Positions 39,505-53,687 of a DNA stretch of 64,000 nucleotides are shown here, piece after piece. Source of the DNA: Kineosporia corallincola (GTDB taxonomy: Bacteria; Actinomycetota; Actinomycetes; Actinomycetales; Kineosporiaceae); NCBI RefSeq assembly GCF_018499875.1, contig NZ_JAHBAY010000001.1, positions 496,001 to 560,000 of the forward strand, in the 5' to 3' direction. The translations under genes and the position numbers were made by a program. The notes under the pieces are model-generated. The model was not told the origin of the DNA, did no database searches, and saw only the letters and a program-made list of their open reading frames with translations. Position 1 is the stretch's first letter; each line of letters begins with the position of its first letter.

Positions 39505-42357
39505 TCACCGCCGGAGGGCGCGGGGCAGGCGCAGGGTGAACAGGTTGGTCACGTCCTGGGCCGGCATCGCCCGGGCGATGGCCTGACCCTGCACCACGTC
39601 GGCACCGATGCGCCGGGCGCCCTCCAGCTGCCCGGCGGTCTCGACCGATCCGCACACCACCCGCAGCCCGAGCGTGTGACACAGGTGCGCGGCCGCCCGC
39701 ACCACCTCGTCCGGCTCGCCGAGTTCCGCGGCCAGCCGGCCGTCCAGCTTCACCGCGTCGATCGGCAGCCGGCGCAGCATCGTCAGCGAGGTGCCGCCGC
39801 GACCGAAGTCGGCCAGCGCCACCGGGATCCCGAGCGAGCGCAGCATCCCCAGCGTGACCAGTGCCGGGCCGGACTCCTCCAGCTCGCCGGCGTTCACCTG
39901 GAGCACCAGCGACGACGCCGTCAGGCCCCGGATCGCCAGCTGTGCGGCCACTTCGTGGGCGAAGTCCGGATCGGCGAGCTGGGCCGGTGACAGCCCCACC
40001 CAGACCTGCTCGACCCCGACCCCCTCGTGCCGCCAGACCACCAGCGCGGCCAGGGCCCGGTTGATCGTCTGGAGCCCGAGCGCGACGCCCAGGCCCAGTT
40101 CGTCGGCCAGTGGGACGAAGGCCTGCGCGTCCGCGGTGGTGCCGTCCTGACGGCGCCAGCGCGGCAGGGCCTCGGCGCCGGTGATGTGGTCGTCGTCGTC
40201 CAGGCCGGCGCCGAGCGCGAGCATCGGCTGGAAGTCCACCTCGATCAGGCCCCGCAGGACGGCCTGGCGCAGCTCCTGCTCCAGACCCGCCCGCAGCAGG
40301 GCCCGGGCGCGCTCGGCCCGGTCGAACATGCTCCAGCGTCCGCGGCCGCCGCGGCGTGCGGCGCGCACCGCCTCGTCCGCCGCCTGGAGCAGGTCCTCGG
40401 CGGTGACCAGTCCCGGCCCGGAGATCGCGCCGCCGAGCGAACAGGTCAGGCCGAACTCCCGCCCGCCGCGGGCGGTGACCGAGCCGGAGGTGAGAACCGG
40501 CTCGTGCATCAGCCGGGTGACGGTGCGGGCGACGTCGGCGCAGGTGTCGGCGTTCGGGGCGGCCACGTCGTCGGTGAGCACCAGGGCGAACTGCCCCCGG
40601 CCCACCCGGCCGACCAGCAGGTCGCCGAAGGCGTCGGCGATCCGCAGGCCGGCCTGTGCGGCCAGGTCGTCGGCCACGGCCGGGCCCAGGCTGTCGGCCA
40701 GCGCGTCGAAGCCGTCCAGGTCGGCGAGCACCAGCCCGACCGGCGGCTGGGTGCTGCCGCGAGTGATCGGGTCGGGCTCGGTGAGGGTGATGGCGACGGC
40801 CCGCAGCAGGCCGTCCCGGTTCGGCAGACCGGTTGCCGGGTCGATCGAGGACGACGCGACCAGCGCGGCCGCCTCGGCGCGGGCCCGGCGCTCGGCCGCC
40901 AGCGCGGCCGAGGCGGCGCGCACCAGGCGGCGCCGGGCCGTGGTCGAGGTGATTCCCACCAGTGCCGCCACGAGAATGCCCGAGCCCAGCGCGATCTGGA
41001 TGCCGACCAGGGGACTGTCCTGGGGATGCAGCAGCAGCCGGGCGATCCGGGCCGGGCCGTCGAGCAGGGTCCGGCCGGTCAGGGCGCCGGCCAGGGCGAG
41101 CACCGCCAGCCCGGTGACCAGCCGACCGGCCACCGGCCCGAGCAGCAGCGGGTAGGAGGCCACGGTGGCCAGCACGATCACCAGCGACACCGGGGTCATG
41201 GCCGGGGCGAGCACGGGCAGGGCGGCGGCGGCCCCGAACAGCACCGTGGCCCGCAGTACCCGCATGGCCGGGAGGAACCTCGAGATCGGCAGCAGGGCCA
41301 GCAGCCCGGCCGCGGGGAGGGCCGCGAGCGCCAGCCAGATCTCCGGCGGCGCCGCGATCGCCCAGGCCGTGGCCGTGGCGATCATCGACAGCACCACCAC
41401 CAGCACGGCCTCCGGGATCCGGCGGGACTCCGGCACGGGCTGCAGACGTACGGGGCTCAGATCGACCCCGACCGACCCGACCGAGCCCGGCCGGCTCCCG
41501 GTCAGGCTGACGGGGACGGCCATGGATGTCGGAACCGTTGTGGCCGTGGGGTGTTTCGGGATTGCCGGGGCTGTCAGGAGGTCTTCGGGTGAGACGGCCC
41601 GTGTGCCGGAGGCGGTGGGGTCGAAGGGGAAGGAGCCGGGCCCGGTGGGATTCGTTGCGGTGAAGGAAGCTTCGGCGGTGTCGTCGTCCCCGGTCCGGTT
41701 CAGGGTGGGCGGGGCCGAGGGGGGCATCGGGCGGGGGCGGTGGATCAGCTTCGGGCCGTCGGACAGGTCGATCGCCATCGGGCCCGGCTGCTCCCACTCG
41801 GCGGTGTCGGGCTCCGGTGTGGTGGCGCGGTCCGGTTCGGCGTCGGGTTCGTCCGGCCGTGGGGTCGAGTCTTCCGGCGTGGCAACCGGTTCCGGCTGTG
41901 GACGGTCGGTGCGCCGGGCGCGGGGGGTTTCGTCGTCCTCGTGTGGACCCGCCGGACGCGGCACCGGACGGACCGCCGGACGTGGCCAGGGGATGCCACC
42001 CCGATCGGTGCCGAAGGCCAGCGTGTCGAAGCGGTGGTCGTGCCGGGCCGGCCGGTCGCGCAGGGGGTTCGGGATGGCCAGGGGCGGGGTCAGGAGCGGG
42101 GTCGGCAGGCTCGCCTCGACCCGCTCGCCCCGGCCGGTACCGTGCTCGCCGGTGATCCGCCGCAGGCGTCCCCGGGTGGTCCGGATCCGGGCCCGCACCC
42201 GGGAACCGCGCCGGGCGCCGCGGCCCATCCGGCTCCACCGGCCGGCCGGGGCCGGGGGCAGGTCCATGCCGCCGACCCCGAAACCGGGGGCGGGAACCGT
42301 CGGAGGGTGGTTGCCGGGACGGGGATCGCCGCCGGAGTCGGCCCCGAGAAGCTGCAT
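39505..42357 (-). CDS. Membrane protein with degenerate GGDEF and EAL domains
   Basis: A 950-aa protein: a disordered Pro/Arg/Asp-rich N-terminus (1 to about 310), five or six membrane helices (about 318-500), a GGDEF-like domain (about 535-690) and an EAL-like domain (about 700-945). The GGDEF site reads G-R-G-Q-F (near 589). EAL keeps E-A-L-P-R near 726, but the Asn of N-x-S is Gly (V-G-L-S), L-E-x-T-E reads L-Q-V-N-A, D-D-F-G reads A-D-F-G, and A-E-G-V-E-T reads C-G-S-V-E-T. Both enzymes are predicted inactive, so it is probably a c-di-GMP receptor or a scaffold. ATG at 42357. Confidence 0.8.
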   Translation of the reverse strand: MQLLGADSGGDPRPGNHPPTVPAPGFGVGGMDLPPAPAGRWSRMGRGARRGSRVRARIRTTRGRLRRITGEHGTGRGERVEASLPTPLLTPPLAIPNPLRDRPARHDHRFDTLAFGTDRGGIPWPRPAVRPVPRPAGPHEDDETPRARRTDRPQPEPVATPEDSTPRPDEPDAEPDRATTPEPDTAEWEQPGPMAIDLSDGPKLIHRPRPMPPSAPPTLNRTGDDDTAEASFTATNPTGPGSFPFDPTASGTRAVSPEDLLTAPAIPKHPTATTVPTSMAVPVSLTGSRPGSVGSVGVDLSPVRLQPVPESRRIPEAVLVVVLSMIATATAWAIAAPPEIWLALAALPAAGLLALLPISRFLPAMRVLRATVLFGAAAALPVLAPAMTPVSLVIVLATVASYPLLLGPVAGRLVTGLAVLALAGALTGRTLLDGPARIARLLLHPQDSPLVGIQIALGSGILVAALVGITSTTARRRLVRAASAALAAERRARAEAAALVASSSIDPATGLPNRDGLLRAVAITLTEPDPITRGSTQPPVGLVLADLDGFDALADSLGPAVADDLAAQAGLRIADAFGDLLVGRVGRGQFALVLTDDVAAPNADTCADVARTVTRLMHEPVLTSGSVTARGGREFGLTCSLGGAISGPGLVTAEDLLQAADEAVRAARRGGRGRWSMFDRAERARALLRAGLEQELRQAVLRGLIEVDFQPMLALGAGLDDDDHITGAEALPRWRRQDGTTADAQAFVPLADELGLGVALGLQTINRALAALVVWRHEGVGVEQVWVGLSPAQLADPDFAHEVAAQLAIRGLTASSLVLQVNAGELEESGPALVTLGMLRSLGIPVALADFGRGGTSLTMLRRLPIDAVKLDGRLAAELGEPDEVVRAAAHLCHTLGLRVVCGSVETAGQLEGARRIGADVVQGQAIARAMPAQDVTNLFTLRLPRALRR

Positions 42358-45125: not shown

Positions 45126-46451
45126 GTGCATTCCGTGGAACAGGCGCTGGCCGCAATCGGCCGCGCCGAACCCGAGGTGGCCGAGGACGCTCGGGCGGCT
45201 TGGGAATCGCTGACCGGGGGTGACGGGCCCGAGTCGGTGACGCAGTGGCGACTCCAGCAGTTCTGCTGGGACGAGCTGAACCGCTCCTGGATGTCGGACG
45301 CCGCGGGTCGCTGGCGGGTCGCCACCGCACTCGCCGCCCTCCTCGACGGCCTGGGGATGCAGCGGTACTCCGGCATCGCCCGCAGCGACACCACCCGGCA
45401 GATCCTGTTCACCGGCGACCAGGCCCCCGACCGGGGCCGCACCGTGGTGCGCCGGGCCATGCAGCGTTCCGGCATCGAGCCGCCCGACACCGAACTGCTC
45501 ACCTGGGGCGCCATCATGGGCCAGGCCGAGGCCCAGGCCCGGGAGGCGGTGGCCGACCGGCTGGAACTGGCCGTCGCGGTCGGCGACCTCCAGCCCGGCA
45601 CCCGCGGCTGGCGCGACGCGCAGGCCGAGATCACCCTGAACGTGCTGCTCTCGCCGCGGATGGACCTGTCCGGCGAGGCCCTCTACGACCAGATCCTCGA
45701 CGAGCGTCTGGACGACTGGGTGCGCGGCCCGCGCTCCACCACCCGCGGCGGTCTGCTGGCCCCGCTGGAGGCCTCGCTGCGCGAGAACGTCGACCCGGGG
45801 ATGGCCGCCCCGGCCCGTGCCCTGCTGCGCCCGCTCGACTGGCTGCTCACCGAGATCGGCGACGGCCTGGCCCTGACCGCGGCCGGCTACCTGCCGCCGC
45901 GCACGGTGTCCCGGGCTCTCGACGAACTGGGCTGGCGCGACGAGCTGATCGGCCCGGCCAACCGTGAGGTGGACGCCTACCCGGTGCTGGTGCTGCGCGA
46001 GACCGCGCAGCGTCTGGGCCTGTGCCGCCGCCGCGCCTCACGCCTCACCCTGACCCCCAGCGGCCGGGCCGCGCTGGCCGACGGCCGCACGCTCTGGCAC
46101 TCGGTCGCCGCCGGGCTGGTCGGGCCGGAGCACTCCGCCCTGGCCGTGGCCTGGGAGGTGGTGCTGGCCGTGCTGGCGCCGGGTGACGTGGTCGGCGAGG
46201 AAGACGTGCGCACCCTGGTGCAGGCCGTGATCACCGAGTCCGGCTGGCGGGTGGCGGGCCGGCGCACGCCGTCGGAGAGCGACACCAGTGCCCTGTTCTT
46301 CGCGGTGCTGCGTGAGCTGCGCTGGATGGAGCTGGTGGAGGAGTCCGGCGCGCTGCTGGACCGTCAGCTGCGGGCCCGCTCCGGCGCTGCCGACCTGTTC
46401 CGGGCCGCGCTGCGGCACCGGGTGCTGCACCGCGACATCGTGCCCTTCTAA
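45126..46451 (+). CDS. Uncharacterised 441-aa protein with C-terminal winged-helix-like half
   Basis: I do not recognise a firm family. The first half is helical and includes F-C-W-D-E-L-N-R-S-W and T-W-G-A-I-M-G-Q-A-E-A-Q-A. The second half has L-L-T-E-I-G-D-G-L-A-L-T-A-A-G-Y-L-P-P and R-R-A-S-R-L-T-L-T-P-S-G-R-A-A-L-A, phrases I recall from actinobacterial hypothetical proteins linked to the pRiA4b ORF-3 family, suggesting a DNA-binding-like winged helix. No membrane segments. The GTG at 45126 is the first start after the divergent menE. Its end overlaps the convergent giant gene by 4 bp. Confidence 0.55.
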   Translation: MHSVEQALAAIGRAEPEVAEDARAAWESLTGGDGPESVTQWRLQQFCWDELNRSWMSDAAGRWRVATALAALLDGLGMQRYSGIARSDTTRQILFTGDQAPDRGRTVVRRAMQRSGIEPPDTELLTWGAIMGQAEAQAREAVADRLELAVAVGDLQPGTRGWRDAQAEITLNVLLSPRMDLSGEALYDQILDERLDDWVRGPRSTTRGGLLAPLEASLRENVDPGMAAPARALLRPLDWLLTEIGDGLALTAAGYLPPRTVSRALDELGWRDELIGPANREVDAYPVLVLRETAQRLGLCRRRASRLTLTPSGRAALADGRTLWHSVAAGLVGPEHSALAVAWEVVLAVLAPGDVVGEEDVRTLVQAVITESGWRVAGRRTPSESDTSALFFAVLRELRWMELVEESGALLDRQLRARSGAADLFRAALRHRVLHRDIVPF

Positions 46452-49400
46452 TACCTGCTCAAGAAGCTCGGGATCTCTTCCGGCGGAAGCGGTCTGGCGA
46501 AGAAGTAGCCCTGGCCGACCTCGCAGCCGACGTCGCGCAGCAGGTCGGCCTGGGCCTCGCTCTCGATGCCCTCGGCCGTGGTCTCCAGCGACAGGATGCG
46601 GGCCAGGTCCACCACCGTGCGCACGATCGCCAGGTCCTCCTCCACGGTCTCGATGTTGTCGATGAACGACTTGTCGATCTTCAGCTTGTCCACCGGGAAC
46701 CGGCGCAGGTACGACAGCGACGAGTAGCCGGTGCCGAAGTCGTCGATCCCGACCTGCACGCCCAGCCGGCGCAGCTCGGACAGCTGCGCGGTGATCCCCT
46801 CCGGGTCCTCCATCAGCACGGTCTCGGTGAGCTCCAGGGTGAGGGCCGAGGCGGGCAGCCCGGTCTCGGCGAGCGTGCTGACCACGTCCTGCGCCAGCCC
46901 CCCGTCGGACAGCTGGCGCGCCGACACGTTGATGTTGAGCCGCAGGTCCGGGGCCGGGCCGCGGCGCCAGGCCGCCACCTGGCGGCAGCTGGTCACCAGC
47001 ACCCAGCGGCCCATCTCGATCACCGCGCCGGTCTCCTCGGCGATCGGCACGAACAACGCCGGCGAGATCATCCCGCGCTCCGGGTGCCGCCAGCGGATCA
47101 GCGTCTCCACCCCGATCGGCATCCGCTGCGGCAGCGTCATCAGCGGCTGGTAGACCAGCTCGAACTGGTTCTCCGACAACGCCCTTCGCAGGTCACCCTG
47201 GAGCTCCAGGCGGTCCCGGGCGTCCTCCTGCATCCGCTGCTCGAACACCGCCGCCCGCCGCGACCCGGTCTTCTTCGCCTGATACATCGCCAGGTCGGCC
47301 TGTCGCAGCAGCTCACCGGTCTCGTGCTGGGCGGCGTCGCCGTGGGCCACGCCCACGCTGGCCGTGACGAAGATGTCCCGCCCGGCCAGCCGGATCGGCC
47401 GGGCCAGCTGTGTGGTGATCCGCTCGGCCGCCCGCAGCGCCGGGGCGGTGCCCCGGGTGCCCTCCATCAGTACCGCGAACTCGTCGCCGCCCAGCCGGGC
47501 CACCGTGTCCGAGTCCCGGATGCACTCGCGCAGCCGCCGCGCCACCTCGGCCAGCAGCTCGTCGCCGGCGCCGTGCCCGAGCGTGTCGTTCACCGCCTTG
47601 AACCGGTCCAGGTCGATGAACAGCACGCTGACCTCGGCCGGATCGTGGTCCGCCGGACCGGACAGCGCCTGCTTGAGCCGGTCGAGGAACAGCGAGCGGT
47701 TGGCCAGCCCGGTCAGCGAGTCGTACGACGCCTCGCGGATCGCCTCCAGCGTGTTCGCGTCGTTCAGGGCCAGGCTGACCTGCTCGGCGAACGCCCCGAG
47801 CAGGTCCTGCCGCCAGTCCTCCGGGCCCAGCCGGTCGGCGGCGCTGGTCACCAGGCTGCCGATGATCCGGCCGTTCACCTGGACCGGCGCGGCGATCAGG
47901 GTGATCTCGCCGTCACCGTCGTCGAGGGCGGTGACCAGCTCGTCCGCCTCGATCGCGGCCGAGGCCATGCGCAGCACCGCGTCGTCGGTCTCGGCGGGGC
48001 CGCGGTGGCCGCTGACCGAGGGGATGTTCGGCCGGTCGGAACCCTCCAGGTCGAGCAGCACCAGGGCGACGAAAGCACCCTCCAGCATGCCCGAGGCGCC
48101 CTCGGTGACGGCGTCCAGCACCAGCTGGAGCGGCACCCGGTGGGAGATGTCCCGCTGGATCGCCAGCAGCGTCTCCAGCAGCCGCTCCCGCTGCCGCACG
48201 GTCTCCAGCAGCTTCTCCCGCTGCCGGGCCTCCTGCTCGGTGCGGCGCCGGGCCAGCGCGTTCTCGAACGACACGGCCAGCTGCCCGGCGATCAGCCGCA
48301 CGGCGTCCAGCCGGTCCGCCGAGAAGGCGTTGGTGTGCAGCTGGTTCTCCAGCACCAGCACCAGCCGGGACTCACCCCGCGACCGGATCGGCACCACCAT
48401 CAGCGCGCAGCAGGGCAGGGTACGCAGGTACTCGTCGCCGGAGAACCGGTCGTCACGGGTGGCGTCGGCCACCAGCAGGGGCTCCCCGGTGCGCTCGGCG
48501 TAGCGGAACGCGGACACCGGAAATCCCTGGCCGGCCAACGTCTTCGTGCCCTGTCCCGGGCTGGTCCAGTCCTCGCCGTCACGCAGCAGGATGGTCACGT
48601 CGGTGGCCCCGGCCATCGCGGTCAGCACCTCGACCACCCGGGCGTGCAACTGGTCGAAGGCCGTCTCCCGGCCGATCGCCTGCGAGGCCGACAGCACCGC
48701 CAGCAGGTCCACGGCGTCGGTGCCGTCCACGCCGGGGGAGGCCACCTCGTCCACGTTGTGCGGCCGCGGCTCGTGATCGGGGGTGACCGCCCTCAGGAAC
48801 GGGTAGCGCTGGCGCATCTGCTCGACCTTGGCCACCGCGCCCCAGGCCAGGTACGAGTCCCGGGCCAGGGTGAGCATGGCCCGGGCGCCGTACTCGTGCC
48901 CCTGCGCCTGCCGGAACAGCCCGGCCCGCTCCACGATCAGGGCCCGGTGCCAGCCCCGGTAGGGCACGGTGTTCAGGATCGCCTCGTCGAAGTGCCGCAG
49001 CGCCGCCAGCGGGTCGCCGTCCGCCCAGGCCACCTCGGCGTCGATCCAGGAGATCAGGTGGCCGAAGGTGGCCGGCAGCTCCTGCGCCCGGCGGCCCAGC
49101 CACTCCCGGCTCACCTCCAGCCGGGCCCGCAGCTCCGCGGCCGCCTCCGGCCCGGCCGACGGCAGCGACCAGGCCAGCGAGAGCACGTTCAGCAGGTGCG
49201 CCTGCGAGCTGGAGTACCCGCTCTCCAGGAACGGGAACCGGGCCATCACCGGGCCCAGGTGCGCGGCCAGCGACTGCTCGTCGCCGAGCACCGCGGCCAG
49301 CAGTGCGGCGAGCAGGTGCCGGCCGACCACGGCCGGCTGCACGGTCAGCCCGATGTCGGTGTCCAGCTCCGGCGGCTGATCACCGCGCAGCGCCAGCACG

Positions 49401-52400
49401 AAGTGCCGGAAGCTCACGATCAGCTGCCGGGCCTGGTCGTTGCCCATCCGGGCGGCCAGCGCCAGGCCCTGGTCGGTGCCGGCCAGCAGGCCGGCCAGGG
49501 TGGGGCTGAAGTCGAGCATGCTGGAGCACAGCGTGTGGTAACTGAACGCGGCGGCCTGCGGCTCGCCCCCGCGCAGCAGCCCGGACTCGGCGTGCTGGAG
49601 GTCGGCGATGGCCGTCTCCAGTGGTTCGAACCAGGGCCGGGCGGTAGCGCCGCACAGGTAGCGGGCGTACGAGCTCTCCGGCTCGTAACCGCGTTCGGTG
49701 CTGACCGCCAGCACCCGCCGCACCACCCGGTACCCGGTGCGGAAGTCGCCGTTGCGGCCGATGGTCAGGATCGACGAGTGCGAGAGCGCCTCCACCAGGT
49801 GGCGCTGCGGGCCGTGCTCGTCCCACATCCGGCGGCTGGTCAGGATCAGCCAGCCGAGCAGGTCGTGGTCGGCGAAGAAGGCCGCGTGGTTCAGGCGCCG
49901 CAGCACCGCCGCCCGGGCCAGCACCCAGGCGTCGCCGGTCTCCGGCCGGCGCAGGTCCCCGGCCACGTCGTCGGCCTCGGCCCAGGCGGTGAAGTCGGGC
50001 ATCCCGGCGGTGGTGAACGGCCCCAGCTCGTCGGCCGGCGGCACCGGCGTGCCGAGCGCGGCCAGCTGCCGCCGGCCCAGGGCGATCGCCTCGTGCACCC
50101 GGCCGCGGTTGGTCAGCGCGGCGATCTGGAGGCACACCGACTCGTTCAGCCGCAGCGGGTCGGTGCAGCGCCGCACCAGCGACTCGAACAGCGCGTCCAT
50201 GGTGTCCAGCTCGCCCAGGCCGTACACGGTGGCGTGCCGTTCCAGGTCGAGCCGGAGCAGCAGCTGCTCGTCCTCCTCCTGGCTGAGACCGTCCAGCAGC
50301 CGCATCCCGGCGGCGTAGAACCGTTCCGCCGTCACCGGATTGGTCACCCGGATCGCCGAGCCGGCCCGTTCCAGCAGGTCCGCGGCCCGGCGCCGCTCGG
50401 CCGGGTCGGTCAGCTCGGGCAGGGCCGCCACATACTGCGCCGCGGCCGTGGTCAGGTGCCGCGGGTCGCCGGCCAGCCGGTGCGCGATGGTCAGGTGCAG
50501 CAGCCCGGCGCTGCGTCCCTGGCGTCCCGGCCCACGCAGCAGCCGGTGGCTGCGCTCGTGCCGGAACCGCACCGTGCCCTCCTCCTCGGCCTGCCCGGTC
50601 GTGGTCGCCACCAGGCCGTCGACGATCGCCGGGTCCAGCCGGGCGTCGAGTTCCTCCAGCGACATCCCGGCGGCGGTGGCCAGCACCGTCAGCCTGCTCT
50701 TCGGCCCGAGCGCGGCCAGCACCTCCAGCACGGCGACCGTCGCGTCGGGCAGCCGCTCCAGCCGCCCGCCCAGCGGGTCACCGCTCTCACCGCCGGTCAG
50801 CCGGCCGCGCACCGAGGTGGCGTCCCAGGTCCAGCCGGACTCGCCGAGCCGCAGCGCCCCCTCGGCCCGCAGCGCGTTCAGCAGCTCGATCGTCTCGGAC
50901 GGGTTGCCGCGGGTGCGGGCGCCCACCATGTCGGCCAGCCGGGCCGACTCGCGGCGGTCCAGACGCAGCATCTCGGCGAGCATCTCGGCCAGATCGTCGC
51001 GGGCCAGGTTCTCCACCCGGATCGCGGCCGGCCACAGGCCCAGCTGGGTCCAGCGCGGCACCAGCGCGTGGATCGCGTGGCCCTCGCCCACCTCGTCGTC
51101 GCGGAACGCCCCGACCAGCAGCAGACCGTCGATCTCGCTACCGGTCAGCACGGCGTCGAGCAGCCCGAGGGGGAACGGCGCGGCCCACTGGAGCGAGTCC
51201 AGCACCATCACCACCGGGCGCTGCCGGGAGGCCGTGGCCCGCAGCACGTCCAGCGCTCCCTGCCGGGCCCGGCTCTGGATCTCCAGCGGGTCACCCAGCG
51301 GCGGGTCGCCGGCCACCCCGAGCACCGGGGCCAGGTCGGGCACCAGCCCGGCCATCAGCGAGGCGTTGCCGCCGAGCATGGTGCGCAGCCGTTTGCGCTG
51401 CTCCACCAGGGCGCTCTCGGTCTCGGCCAGCAGCAGCCGGCCGAGCGCACCGAGCGCCTCCACCACGGCGTTGGAGCGCAGGTCGGAGTCGGCCACGTCG
51501 AAGGTGCCGGAGATGAACCAGCCGCCGGCCGAGGCCACGGTCGGACGCAGCTGGTCGATCAGCGCGGTCTTGCCCACCCCGGCCCGCCCGGCCACGAGCA
51601 CGCCGTTCGACCCGCCCGAGCAGACACCGGCGAAGGCCGAGCGCAGCCGGGTGATGTCGGCGTCCCGGGCGAACAGCCGCGCCGGGCCGGTGAGCTGGTG
51701 CGGGAAGTCGTGGTCGCCGAGCAGGAACGGGCCGATCGCGGCCAGCTGCCGCCCGCCGTGCCCGCCGCCGGCCCTGACGATCTCCTGCCGCAGCCGCTTC
51801 AGGTCGTGCAGCAGCCCGGCGGCGCTCTGGTAGCGCCGGCCGGGTTCCTTCTCCAGCAGTTTCGCGAGGATGTCCGAAAACGGTCGTGGGCAGTCCGGAT
51901 TCAGCAGGGCGACCGGGGTGGGCAGCCGGGCCAGCTGGTCGCGCATCAGGCTCAGGGCGTCGGTCTCACCGCGGCCGAACGGGGGTTCACCGGCGCACAG
52001 TTCGTAGAGCATCACGCCCAGCGTGTACAGGTCGGCCCGCTGGTCCACCGGCTGGGCGGTGCGGCCGGTCTGCTCCGGGGCCAGGTAGACCAGGCGCTGC
52101 ATGATCGAGTTGCTGTGCGCGTAGCCCGGCCGCTCGCCGGAGAACATCGTGGCCCGGTCGAAATTGACGATCGTCGGGCGGTTTCCGGGAACGCTGAGGA
52201 GGATCACCTCGGGGTTCAGGTCGGTGTGCACCACGCCCCGGGCGTGGATCTGGCTGAGCAGGGCCGCCAGGTCCACGGCGAGGTCGACCAGGGCCGGCAG
52301 GTCGAGGTGCCAGTTCGGCGTGCGCATCAGCTGCCGCAGCGAGTTCCCGCGGAAGGCCCGCACGTGGAAGATCGCCCCGGTGACGCCGCCGGCCAGTTGC

Positions 52401-52657
52401 GGCACCCCGGTGATGCCCCGCAGGCGCTCCATCACGGCCGCCGAGTGCCGGGAGCGCTGGGCGGCGTTGGGCCCGCGCATCTCCCGCCGGATCAGCGCGT
52501 CGTCGCCGCTGCCGACCCGGGTCACCCGGCCGAATTGGTCGTCGTGGAGCAGGACCTCGCCGGGCGCCAGGCCGGGGGGCGCCTCCGCCGGCCGCTGCCC
52601 CGGAACCGCGCTCTCGGCCCGGGCGCCACTGCTGCTGCCCGGTTCCGTGTTGGTCAT
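46448..52657 (-). CDS. Giant pseudokinase-AAA-GAF-GAF-GGDEF-EAL signalling protein
   Basis: A 2,069-aa soluble protein. About 45-285 is a kinase fold whose catalytic signs are altered: H-T-D-L-N-P-E-V replaces H-R-D-L-K-P-x-N, N-F-D replaces D-F-G, and the strand-3 Lys region reads L-I-R-R-E. Next comes an AAA_16 NTPase with G-R-A-G-V-G-K-T near 356 and V-L-D-S-L-Q-W, then about 600 residues of helical repeats, GAF domains near 1330-1480 and 1500-1640, GGDEF near 1722 with an R-D-S-D product-inhibition site, and EAL with E-T-L, N-I-N-V-S, L-E-L-T-E, D-D-F-G-T-G-Y and A-E-G-I-E-S all intact. It resembles trifunctional kinase/ATPase/histidine kinases with a c-di-GMP output. The start at 52657 has GAGG 8 nt upstream; 52699 is possible. 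Confidence 0.85.
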   Translation of the reverse strand: MTNTEPGSSSGARAESAVPGQRPAEAPPGLAPGEVLLHDDQFGRVTRVGSGDDALIRREMRGPNAAQRSRHSAAVMERLRGITGVPQLAGGVTGAIFHVRAFRGNSLRQLMRTPNWHLDLPALVDLAVDLAALLSQIHARGVVHTDLNPEVILLSVPGNRPTIVNFDRATMFSGERPGYAHSNSIMQRLVYLAPEQTGRTAQPVDQRADLYTLGVMLYELCAGEPPFGRGETDALSLMRDQLARLPTPVALLNPDCPRPFSDILAKLLEKEPGRRYQSAAGLLHDLKRLRQEIVRAGGGHGGRQLAAIGPFLLGDHDFPHQLTGPARLFARDADITRLRSAFAGVCSGGSNGVLVAGRAGVGKTALIDQLRPTVASAGGWFISGTFDVADSDLRSNAVVEALGALGRLLLAETESALVEQRKRLRTMLGGNASLMAGLVPDLAPVLGVAGDPPLGDPLEIQSRARQGALDVLRATASRQRPVVMVLDSLQWAAPFPLGLLDAVLTGSEIDGLLLVGAFRDDEVGEGHAIHALVPRWTQLGLWPAAIRVENLARDDLAEMLAEMLRLDRRESARLADMVGARTRGNPSETIELLNALRAEGALRLGESGWTWDATSVRGRLTGGESGDPLGGRLERLPDATVAVLEVLAALGPKSRLTVLATAAGMSLEELDARLDPAIVDGLVATTTGQAEEEGTVRFRHERSHRLLRGPGRQGRSAGLLHLTIAHRLAGDPRHLTTAAAQYVAALPELTDPAERRRAADLLERAGSAIRVTNPVTAERFYAAGMRLLDGLSQEEDEQLLLRLDLERHATVYGLGELDTMDALFESLVRRCTDPLRLNESVCLQIAALTNRGRVHEAIALGRRQLAALGTPVPPADELGPFTTAGMPDFTAWAEADDVAGDLRRPETGDAWVLARAAVLRRLNHAAFFADHDLLGWLILTSRRMWDEHGPQRHLVEALSHSSILTIGRNGDFRTGYRVVRRVLAVSTERGYEPESSYARYLCGATARPWFEPLETAIADLQHAESGLLRGGEPQAAAFSYHTLCSSMLDFSPTLAGLLAGTDQGLALAARMGNDQARQLIVSFRHFVLALRGDQPPELDTDIGLTVQPAVVGRHLLAALLAAVLGDEQSLAAHLGPVMARFPFLESGYSSSQAHLLNVLSLAWSLPSAGPEAAAELRARLEVSREWLGRRAQELPATFGHLISWIDAEVAWADGDPLAALRHFDEAILNTVPYRGWHRALIVERAGLFRQAQGHEYGARAMLTLARDSYLAWGAVAKVEQMRQRYPFLRAVTPDHEPRPHNVDEVASPGVDGTDAVDLLAVLSASQAIGRETAFDQLHARVVEVLTAMAGATDVTILLRDGEDWTSPGQGTKTLAGQGFPVSAFRYAERTGEPLLVADATRDDRFSGDEYLRTLPCCALMVVPIRSRGESRLVLVLENQLHTNAFSADRLDAVRLIAGQLAVSFENALARRRTEQEARQREKLLETVRQRERLLETLLAIQRDISHRVPLQLVLDAVTEGASGMLEGAFVALVLLDLEGSDRPNIPSVSGHRGPAETDDAVLRMASAAIEADELVTALDDGDGEITLIAAPVQVNGRIIGSLVTSAADRLGPEDWRQDLLGAFAEQVSLALNDANTLEAIREASYDSLTGLANRSLFLDRLKQALSGPADHDPAEVSVLFIDLDRFKAVNDTLGHGAGDELLAEVARRLRECIRDSDTVARLGGDEFAVLMEGTRGTAPALRAAERITTQLARPIRLAGRDIFVTASVGVAHGDAAQHETGELLRQADLAMYQAKKTGSRRAAVFEQRMQEDARDRLELQGDLRRALSENQFELVYQPLMTLPQRMPIGVETLIRWRHPERGMISPALFVPIAEETGAVIEMGRWVLVTSCRQVAAWRRGPAPDLRLNINVSARQLSDGGLAQDVVSTLAETGLPASALTLELTETVLMEDPEGITAQLSELRRLGVQVGIDDFGTGYSSLSYLRRFPVDKLKIDKSFIDNIETVEEDLAIVRTVVDLARILSLETTAEGIESEAQADLLRDVGCEVGQGYFFARPLPPEEIPSFLSRY

Positions 52658-52772
52658 CAGTCGTGCCTCGCAATCCCCGTCCTTGCGAGGTATCGCCATG
52701 ACGGTGCGAACCCTTGACGCCCGACCAGCGGTTAACCACGGACGCCTGAGGCGGGTTCACACCGGGCGCGAC

Positions 52773-52784: not shown

Positions 52785-53687
52785 ATGTTTGATACAGATC
52801 GAACACACGTGCAGGGCATCCCGCTCGGTGCCGACGCCCCCTACGGCGTCTGGCTGGGCCTGGGACCGCAGGCGCTCGGCGCCTATTCGGGCCGGGAGGG
52901 CGAACTGGCCGCCGAGCTGGAGGGCCTGAACTTCCCCTCGCTCTGGCTGGGCGGCTCGTGGGGCGCCGACCTGGCGCCGATCGAGCGGCTGCTGGCCGGC
53001 AGCGAGCGCCTGGTGGTGGGCACCTCGATCGCCAACATCTGGCGTGACCCGGCCGAGCAGGTGGCCGCCGCCCACACCCGGGTGGCCGAGCGGTTCGGCA
53101 ACCGGTTCGTGCTCGGCCTGGGCGTCGGGCACCATCCGCAGACCGAGCTCAACCAGGGGCAGTACGCCCGGCCCCTGGCGAAACTCGCGGCCTACCTGGA
53201 CGTGCTCGACGCCGCCGACCCGCCGGTGCCGGCCGGGCACCGGGCGCTCGCCGCGCTCGGCCCCAAGGCCCTGGAGCTGGCCCGGGACCGCTCGGCCGGT
53301 TCGCTGCCCTACCTGACCACGCCCGAGCACACCCGCACCGCCCGCGAGACCCTTGGCCCGGAGCGCTTTCTCGCGCCCGAGCAGAAGGTGGTGCTGAGCG
53401 ACGACCCGGACGAGGCCAGGGGCCTGGCCCGGACCGCGCTGCACCACTACCTGGAGCTGCCGAACTACCTGAACTCCTGGCGCCGGCTGGGCTTCGGCGA
53501 GCCGGACTTCGAGAACGGCGGCAGCGACCGGCTGATCGACGCCCTGTTCGGCTGGGGCCCGGACGCACTCGACCACGTGCGGCGGCACCGTGAGGCCGGC
53601 GCCGACCATGTCTGCGTGCAACCGATCCCGCGGAACGGCCGGCACGCCCTGGACGAGCTGCGGATCATCGCCCGCGAGCTGCTCTGA
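52785..53687 (+). CDS. LLM-class, probably F420-dependent oxidoreductase
   Basis: A 300-aa luciferase-like TIM barrel. Recognisable blocks are F-P-S-L-W-L-G-G-S-W-G, V-G-T-S-I-A-N-I-W-R, R-F-V-L-G-L-G-V-G-H-H and G-A-D-H-V-C-V-Q. I recall this pattern from the TIGR03620 group of F420-dependent enzymes; FMN cannot be excluded from sequence alone. Substrate unknown. It stands alone, with its own promoter and a 20-bp bidirectional terminator after it. Confidence 0.82.
   Translation: MFDTDRTHVQGIPLGADAPYGVWLGLGPQALGAYSGREGELAAELEGLNFPSLWLGGSWGADLAPIERLLAGSERLVVGTSIANIWRDPAEQVAAAHTRVAERFGNRFVLGLGVGHHPQTELNQGQYARPLAKLAAYLDVLDAADPPVPAGHRALAALGPKALELARDRSAGSLPYLTTPEHTRTARETLGPERFLAPEQKVVLSDDPDEARGLARTALHHYLELPNYLNSWRRLGFGEPDFENGGSDRLIDALFGWGPDALDHVRRHREAGADHVCVQPIPRNGRHALDELRIIARELL

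Follow-up and report, generated by a model that had tools for sequence, protein, structure and literature searches.

The locus described here raises the question of whether a very long gene of the actinomycete Kineosporia corallincola encodes a new kind of signalling system or a variant of a known one, and what its product would do. The gene lies on the reverse strand of a 64,000-nucleotide stretch (hereafter the window; contig NZ_JAHBAY010000001.1, positions 496,001–560,000), where an uninterrupted open reading frame (ORF) of 2,069 codons plus stop occupies window positions 46448–52657. A first-pass annotation, made from the letters alone, had described the product as a receptor in which a kinase fold with lost catalytic residues and a STAND-like ATPase are joined to an intact cyclic di-GMP (c-di-GMP) module. 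The receptor is genuine and conserved, and it belongs, as a variant, to a known class of chimeric signalling proteins and not to a new kind of system; what is new is the domain swap and the loss of catalytic residues within that class.

The domain order given in that annotation (kinase fold, AAA_16, helical repeats, two GAFs, GGDEF and EAL) is in agreement with both the Pfam matches and the AlphaFold2 models of the protein; domain limits and E-values are collected in Table 1. An N-terminal protein-kinase fold followed by AAA_16, which is a trait of the trifunctional kinase/ATP-binding/histidine kinase proteins, is present. Pfam also bears out the kinship to the kinase/AAA_16/GAF family and the proposed absence of a histidine kinase: no HisKA or HATPase_c match was found in the receptor up to an E-value of 1, and the C-terminus is formed by GGDEF and EAL. 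The AlphaFold2 models cover residues 25–640 and 640–1320 and were built on alignments of the window and locus sequences. In the first (mean predicted local distance difference test score, pLDDT, of 87), the secondary structure fits a kinase with an alpha-beta NTPase behind it, and Foldseek matched this model best to the kinase domain of PknB (1o6y, E 3e-13, TMt 0.81). The second (mean pLDDT 93) is a confident all-helical superhelix that follows a short mixed region, in line with the predicted helical repeats, and its Foldseek matches were only unspecific TPR-like repeat proteins, at low TM-scores. An in-frame ATG further upstream, at 52699, would give a protein of 2,083 residues; this start is less likely than the one used here because the alignment with four orthologs begins at a shared MTNTEPG.

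Five positions of the kinase domain (the β3 Lys, αC Glu, HRD Asp, loop Asn and DFG Asp) were compared after the front region had been aligned with MAFFT. The table of residues excluded loci L001–L003, L020–L032, L041–L049 and L052 and seven loci identical to retained rows. The window protein carries R58, S72, D146, V151 and N165 at these positions, and its orthologs L034–L037 carry R,A,D,T,N; R,S,D,T,N; R,S,D,V,N; and R,S,D,V,N, respectively. In all five proteins, therefore, Lys is replaced by Arg, αC Glu by Ser or Ala, loop Asn by Val or Thr, and DFG Asp by Asn, and the HRD Asp is kept. All five canonical residues are present in 69 of 91 other relatives, and 84 of the 91 keep the Lys, the Glu and the DFG Asp; among the remaining seven, L082 and L115 start at a contig end, L091 differs only by a Glu-to-Asp change, and L064, L086, L095 and L116 show losses. 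The canonical DFG triplet is scarce across the family (2/91), so the loss of its Gly is not peculiar to Kineosporia, in contrast to the loss of its Asp. The losses of the DFG Asp and loop Asn that had been read from the sequence, and the 'probable' loss of the Lys, were all confirmed by the alignments, which added a further one, that of the αC Glu. A conserved catalytic Lys or DFG-type Asp elsewhere in the domain, which would have overturned this assignment, was found neither in the family alignment, nor in the alignment to PknB (identical register at HTD, corresponding to HRD, and at NFD, corresponding to DFG), nor in the topology of the 25–640 model, in which R58 lies in the strand formed by residues 55–60 and S72 in the helix formed by residues 65–78, at the Lys and Glu positions. 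The residue set of an active Hanks-type kinase is absent from the window protein and the fold is kept, as judged by the model and its match to PknB, so the domain is a predicted pseudokinase. A different pattern, and another possible pseudokinase set, was seen in L006, L009, L011, L012, L077, L088, L114, L123 and L132, in which the HRD Asp is replaced by Asn and the other four residues are intact.

There are pseudokinases that bind ATP or that transfer other groups. The kinase could accordingly be active by an unusual route through the HRD Asp, which is retained as D146 in all five orthologous proteins, and could phosphorylate the NTPase, the repeats or the GAFs. We consider this decidedly unlikely, as the protein lacks the β3 Lys, αC Glu, loop Asn and DFG Asp, and a second full-length copy of the receptor has lost the HRD Asp itself. 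This copy (L001:6509–12682, reverse strand; 45% identical) was found in the window genome only (1/6 genomes of the genus) and carries V,E,C,T,D at the five positions, with HRD Asp replaced by Cys and with the αC Glu and DFG Asp kept.

The second Walker-B acid of AAA+ and STAND proteins has a catalytic role, and its loss would be expected to slow hydrolysis. The Walker A Gly and Lys (G360 and K363 in the window protein) are invariant in the five orthologous proteins and in 91/91 relatives. The first Walker-B Asp (D487) is likewise kept in 5/5, and the relatives have Asp (89) or Glu (2) there. At the second acidic position, however, Ser is found in 5/5 (Ser488 in the window protein), as opposed to Asp in 89 of the 91 relatives (Gly and Asn in one each); the second copy also has Asp, as does L107, a protein from a Micromonosporaceae metagenome-assembled genome (MAG). 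This Asp-to-Ser change, as read from the alignment, is an observation that the first-pass annotation did not contain. The proposed 'NTPase switch' thus retains Walker A and the first Walker-B Asp, traits of STAND NTPases, but lacks the second acidic Walker-B residue, and the domain may bind nucleotide without efficient turnover.

Orthologs with 76–79% identity (tblastn) are present in 4/5 other Kineosporia genomes; in a scan of named genomes with the front half, Kineosporia rhizophila and K. babensis matched at 74–75% identity. The presence of the gene in 5/6 genomes, including that of the window, argues against a chance ORF. In the remaining Kineosporia genome (G395) the receptor is absent and its flanks align 35 bases apart, so that window positions 46450 and 53489 adjoin. 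A luciferase-like gene is still represented there by about 200 bases of its 3′ end, and because of this remnant G395 seems to have lost the receptor by deletion, as opposed to having a site that was never filled. Pairwise ratios of nonsynonymous to synonymous substitutions (dN/dS) were calculated for the window protein together with the four orthologs by the Nei-Gojobori method, a simple method whose values are comparative only. They were 0.24 and 0.42 for the C- and N-lobes of the kinase, respectively, 0.31 for AAA_16, 0.43 for residues 516–720, 0.50 for the repeats, 0.39 for GAF1, 0.38 for GAF2, 0.32 for GGDEF and 0.19 for EAL, the most constrained domain (91% identity), with 0.37 for the whole protein. 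These values make a decaying gene unlikely, and the low value of the C-lobe relative to the whole protein indicates that this lobe is maintained by purifying selection, which speaks for a function kept without catalysis. It could still be proposed that only the tail matters and that the receptor half is vestigial and decaying, since the repeats belong to the parts that evolve fastest and G395 has lost the whole gene. This is very unlikely: there are no internal stops in the five orthologous genes, the kinase C-lobe and AAA_16 are constrained like GGDEF, and the Walker A Gly and Lys do not vary.

The claim of an intact c-di-GMP module held up in both of its parts. By direct reading of the sequence and by Pfam, the GGDEF signature of diguanylate cyclases and the RxxD motif of the I-site are intact in RDSDTVARLGGDEF. 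The EAL motifs VETL, NVSARQ, ELTET, DDFGTGYSSL (the loop), KIDKSF, TAEGIES and GQGY align with those of a solved GGDEF-EAL chain (4rnh), as expected for a phosphodiesterase. With both motif sets intact, the two domains may be a bifunctional pair. GTP-sensing GGDEF-EAL enzymes exist, and the receptor could be mainly a c-di-GMP phosphodiesterase in which GGDEF is an allosteric GTP sensor, EAL hydrolyses and the N-terminal part tunes the rate. The high conservation of EAL is in line with this possibility, as are the solved chains that match the tail best (the GGDEF-EAL proteins 4rnh, 4rnf, 5m3c and DosP) and the best named NCBIfam matches of the receptor, which are phosphodiesterases, though far under their cut-offs (460 versus 980 bits for the first). 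We regard it as somewhat doubtful, because the receptor's GGDEF retains its signature and I-site and scores highest among the 75 matched GGDEF stretches of the window genome, so synthesis is possible. This genome (8.2 Mb) also contains 41 EAL stretches, some proteins being split over two, and two flagellin matches. Two further GGDEF-EAL proteins were observed. One (39505–42357, reverse strand; 950 residues) is encoded ∼4 kb from the receptor, and its GGDEF looks degenerate by eye (VGRGQFALVL) and has a much lower Pfam score (55 bits). The other is an 1,888-residue frame (L002:2266–7932, forward strand) with GGDEF-EAL behind a long front that appears by eye to be low-complexity and repeat-rich.

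The first-pass annotation had suggested a search for proteins that share the full architecture, and these were found. In the scan of named genomes, the tails of the best 80 of 513 confirmed relatives contained GGDEF alone in 48 cases, GGDEF and EAL in three (two Kineosporia proteins and L107) and neither in 29 (4/29 incomplete at the right end). A class-wide search at 1e-20 gave matches in 123/394 genomes, many over the kinase alone. When 25 further loci were read to the C-terminus, three had GGDEF and EAL, 12 GGDEF and 10 neither; 19 of these loci are distant (three GGDEF and EAL, six GGDEF, and 10 neither, including one incomplete) and six are of the Frankia type (all GGDEF). In the Frankia-type family the full architecture was found in 0/35 genomes at 1e-105, with 11 candidates per genome scored. 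In the three distant actinobacterial proteins (L172–L174), GGDEF-EAL follows a kinase whose residues are canonical and an NTPase whose Walker B reads DD; Pfam matches of L172 and L174 are Pkinase, AAA_16, GAF, PAS, GGDEF and EAL. Since their kinase residues are intact, pseudokinase and GGDEF-EAL are not obligatorily linked, and these proteins are the strongest evidence against uniqueness of the architecture or of its link to a pseudokinase. A unique architecture was therefore rejected, as L107 and L172–L174 share it.

The history of the fusion was traced with two trees. In a C-terminal tree of 34 GGDEF-EAL modules, a chosen subset of the search matches, the Kineosporia orthologs and the second copy form one clade (support 100/99), which is nested together with eight free-standing GAF-GGDEF-EAL proteins (∼720–800 residues) in a larger group that is also supported (99/98). 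L107 is placed elsewhere, and the supported branches require at least two origins of the fusion. The N-terminal tree comprised 93 front halves without the kinase from the 100-row kinase table; P0001 and L054 (copies of kept rows), L019, L130, L111 and L118, and L051 (too short) were left out. Here, the second copy joins the orthologs on a long branch (SH-like approximate likelihood ratio test, SH-aLRT, 99), and L107 joins L116 (100), the tail of which is HATPase_c. Together, the trees indicate that both Kineosporia copies derive from one fusion, that the Micromonosporaceae MAG made its own, separate kinase-GGDEF-EAL fusion, and, from the pairing of L107 with L116, that a degenerate kinase occurs without EAL in the L107 lineage. 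The statement that the histidine kinase was 'replaced by GGDEF plus EAL' is thus correct in that no histidine kinase is present, but it is oversimplified, given that 48 of the best 80 relatives are GGDEF-only and that the tail groups with free-standing GAF-GGDEF-EAL proteins of ∼770 residues. A rule by which gain of EAL drives loss of the kinase was also rejected: L107 shares its degenerate kinase with a HATPase-type sister, and L172–L174 are counterexamples. Two changes of EAL and four of the pseudokinase state were counted on the tree, with just two independent pairs, too few to test linkage.

We tentatively propose that the receptor is most likely a nucleotide-gated scaffold that sets c-di-GMP levels, with a pseudokinase and a slow NTPase latch. 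In this scheme, the TPR-like superhelix would bind a protein or ligand and the two GAFs would take up signals, with a change in c-di-GMP as the outcome. The STAND-like NTPase would bind ATP and, with Ser as its second Walker-B residue, hydrolyse it slowly; this slow hydrolysis is the reason for assigning it the role of a conformational or oligomerisation latch. The pseudokinase would transfer no phosphate and be retained as a lid for docking or regulation. From the latch, the signal would pass through a GAF1-helix-GAF2 rod to what we infer to be a GGDEF-EAL dimer, and the state of the rod, together with c-di-GMP feedback at the I-site, would set net synthesis or hydrolysis. The scheme is supported by the loss of four of five kinase residues in 5/5 Kineosporia proteins versus the presence of all five in 69/91 relatives, by the purifying selection on the kinase C-lobe, by the retention of Walker A (5/5 and 91/91) alongside the Walker-B change in 5/5, and by the domains themselves, the EAL and GGDEF motifs, the strong constraint on EAL and the superhelix model. 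Several observations weigh against it. The second copy keeps the Walker-B DD, the αC Glu and the DFG Asp, so that the two copies lost different residues; the kinase N-lobe and the repeats are under less constraint than the rest; the three distant proteins of the same architecture have intact kinase residues and a DD Walker B; and the retained HRD Asp could permit odd chemistry. Furthermore, the models end at residues 640 and 1320 and contain no interface between front and tail. Domain order, residue losses, the intact c-di-GMP motifs, conservation and the history of the fusion can be read from sequences or models; ATP binding, slow hydrolysis, oligomerisation, the role as a scaffold, the dimer and the direction of the output are inferred.

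A more far-reaching version of the scaffold scheme, which we regard as unlikely on balance, is that in Kineosporia a kinase-STAND receptor was stripped of phosphotransfer and NTP hydrolysis and reused as a pure nucleotide-binding allosteric driver of a bifunctional c-di-GMP enzyme, possibly for a motile/sessile switch of zoospores. If true, it would be a bacterial NLR-like receptor with c-di-GMP turnover as its effector. As for the host, flagellin is encoded, the genome has 75 GGDEF matches, and zoospores have been reported for the genus, judging by the title of a work that PMC10746217 cites. Should gating of c-di-GMP by the front half involve no phosphotransfer, the kinase fold may serve as an allosteric part in this family.

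Table 1. Position of the receptor gene and its domains in the window
Feature	Window position	Strand	Evidence
Whole receptor, 2069 residues plus stop	46448..52657	-	ORF, Pfam, start common to orthologs
Predicted pseudokinase domain, residues 36-300 (R58, S72, D146, V151, N165 at catalytic positions)	51758..52552	-	Pfam Pkinase (residues 104-281, E 7e-17), PknB matches, residue table, model topology
AAA_16 STAND-like NTPase, residues 327-515; Walker A GRAGVGKT intact, Walker B LDS (Ser488 at second acid position)	51113..51679	-	Pfam (327-515, E 3e-23), residue table
Post-NTPase region, residues 516-720; conserved GNP motif, helices and short strands	50498..51112	-	Alignment, models
TPR-like helical superhelix, residues 721-1300	48758..50497	-	Model (mean pLDDT 93); Foldseek helical-repeat matches with low TM-scores
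GAF1, residues 1334-1463	48269..48658	-	Pfam (better of two GAF stretches, 1338-1463, E 3e-17)
GAF2, residues ~1495-1620 (limits estimated), common to free-standing GAF-GGDEF-EAL proteins	47798..48175	-	Second Pfam GAF stretch; matches spanning ~1465-2066; GAF in L052
GGDEF domain, residues 1643-1800; GGDEF and RxxD I-site intact	47258..47731	-	Sequence reading, Pfam (1643-1800, E 9e-48)
EAL domain with catalytic motifs, residues 1822-2056	46490..47194	-	Pfam (1822-2056, E 2e-73), alignment to 4rnh

Both genes that adjoin the receptor were also compared. A 441-residue gene (45126–46451, forward strand) is convergent with the receptor, the ends overlapping by four bases; it has no Pfam match at E 0.01 and is 96–97% identical in the five other Kineosporia genomes, which puts its conservation well above that of the receptor. 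On the other side lies a divergent luciferase-like gene (52785–53687, forward strand), which is 78–85% identical at this place in three relatives and absent there in two.

Among known systems, the trifunctional Ser/Thr kinase/ATP-binding/histidine kinase proteins (the HstK, cbSTKIII class) have the kinase fold, AAA_16 and GAF in common with the receptor; HstK itself has AAA_16. The name is borne by two plasmid matches (H4 and H20) that align over part of the receptor's front half. The output of this class is a histidine kinase, unlike that of the receptor, and relatives in the kinase table without GGDEF mostly retain the kinase residues. A cyanobacterial class with GAF and HisKA, HstK included, is described in PMC2176072. 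By name, the TOMM system kinase/cyclase fusion (TIGR03903) follows a kinase-NTPase-cyclase plan, and its best stretch covers receptor residues 328–700 (the NTPase and the part that follows); with 82.2 bits against a cut-off of 705.75, the receptor is not a member. GGDEF has been placed in other conflict systems as well, according to PMC7159879. The openly licensed literature searched contained no paper on a Kineosporia-type protein and, among the titles listed, none on a fusion of pseudokinase and diguanylate cyclase. A described protein of related plan is a Clostridium thermocellum Ser/Thr kinase with six TPRs and GGDEF (1826 residues), reported in 2005, in which the kinase is joined through repeats to GGDEF, as in the receptor; the likeness is by description, and the available portion of that paper mentions no EAL (PMC1262709). 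As to the first-pass proviso that many near-identical architectures might already be described with known function, kinase-TPR-GGDEF has been described, and that portion shows no function for it (PMC1262709).

Also among the closest known systems are actinobacterial kinase-AAA_16-TPR-GAF-GGDEF proteins from Frankiaceae and Micromonosporaceae (e.g. L006 and L059), for which no family name was found. They are collinear with the receptor over residues ∼20–1490 with ∼40% identity, lack GAF2 and EAL, and in most cases keep the kinase residues and the DD of Walker B. Like the receptor, L107 has a degenerate kinase, AAA_16 and GAF followed by GGDEF-EAL, but it has PAS_9 in place of GAF2, has lost different kinase residues (Q,E,N,N,G at the five positions) and acquired GGDEF-EAL separately; its sister L116 has similar kinase losses and the HATPase_c tail. 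The same order of kinase, AAA_16, GAF, GGDEF and EAL is found in L172–L174 (1964–1973 residues), which are ∼30% identical to the receptor in the front part, with PAS instead of GAF2 (L172 and L174, by Pfam) and with intact kinase residues and Walker B, so that they are useful as catalytic counterparts to the Kineosporia receptor. These proteins provide a natural series for the role of the kinase domain in kinase-STAND chimeras: intact kinase residues with GGDEF only, intact kinase residues with GGDEF-EAL (L172–L174), and a degenerate kinase with GGDEF-EAL (Kineosporia and L107).

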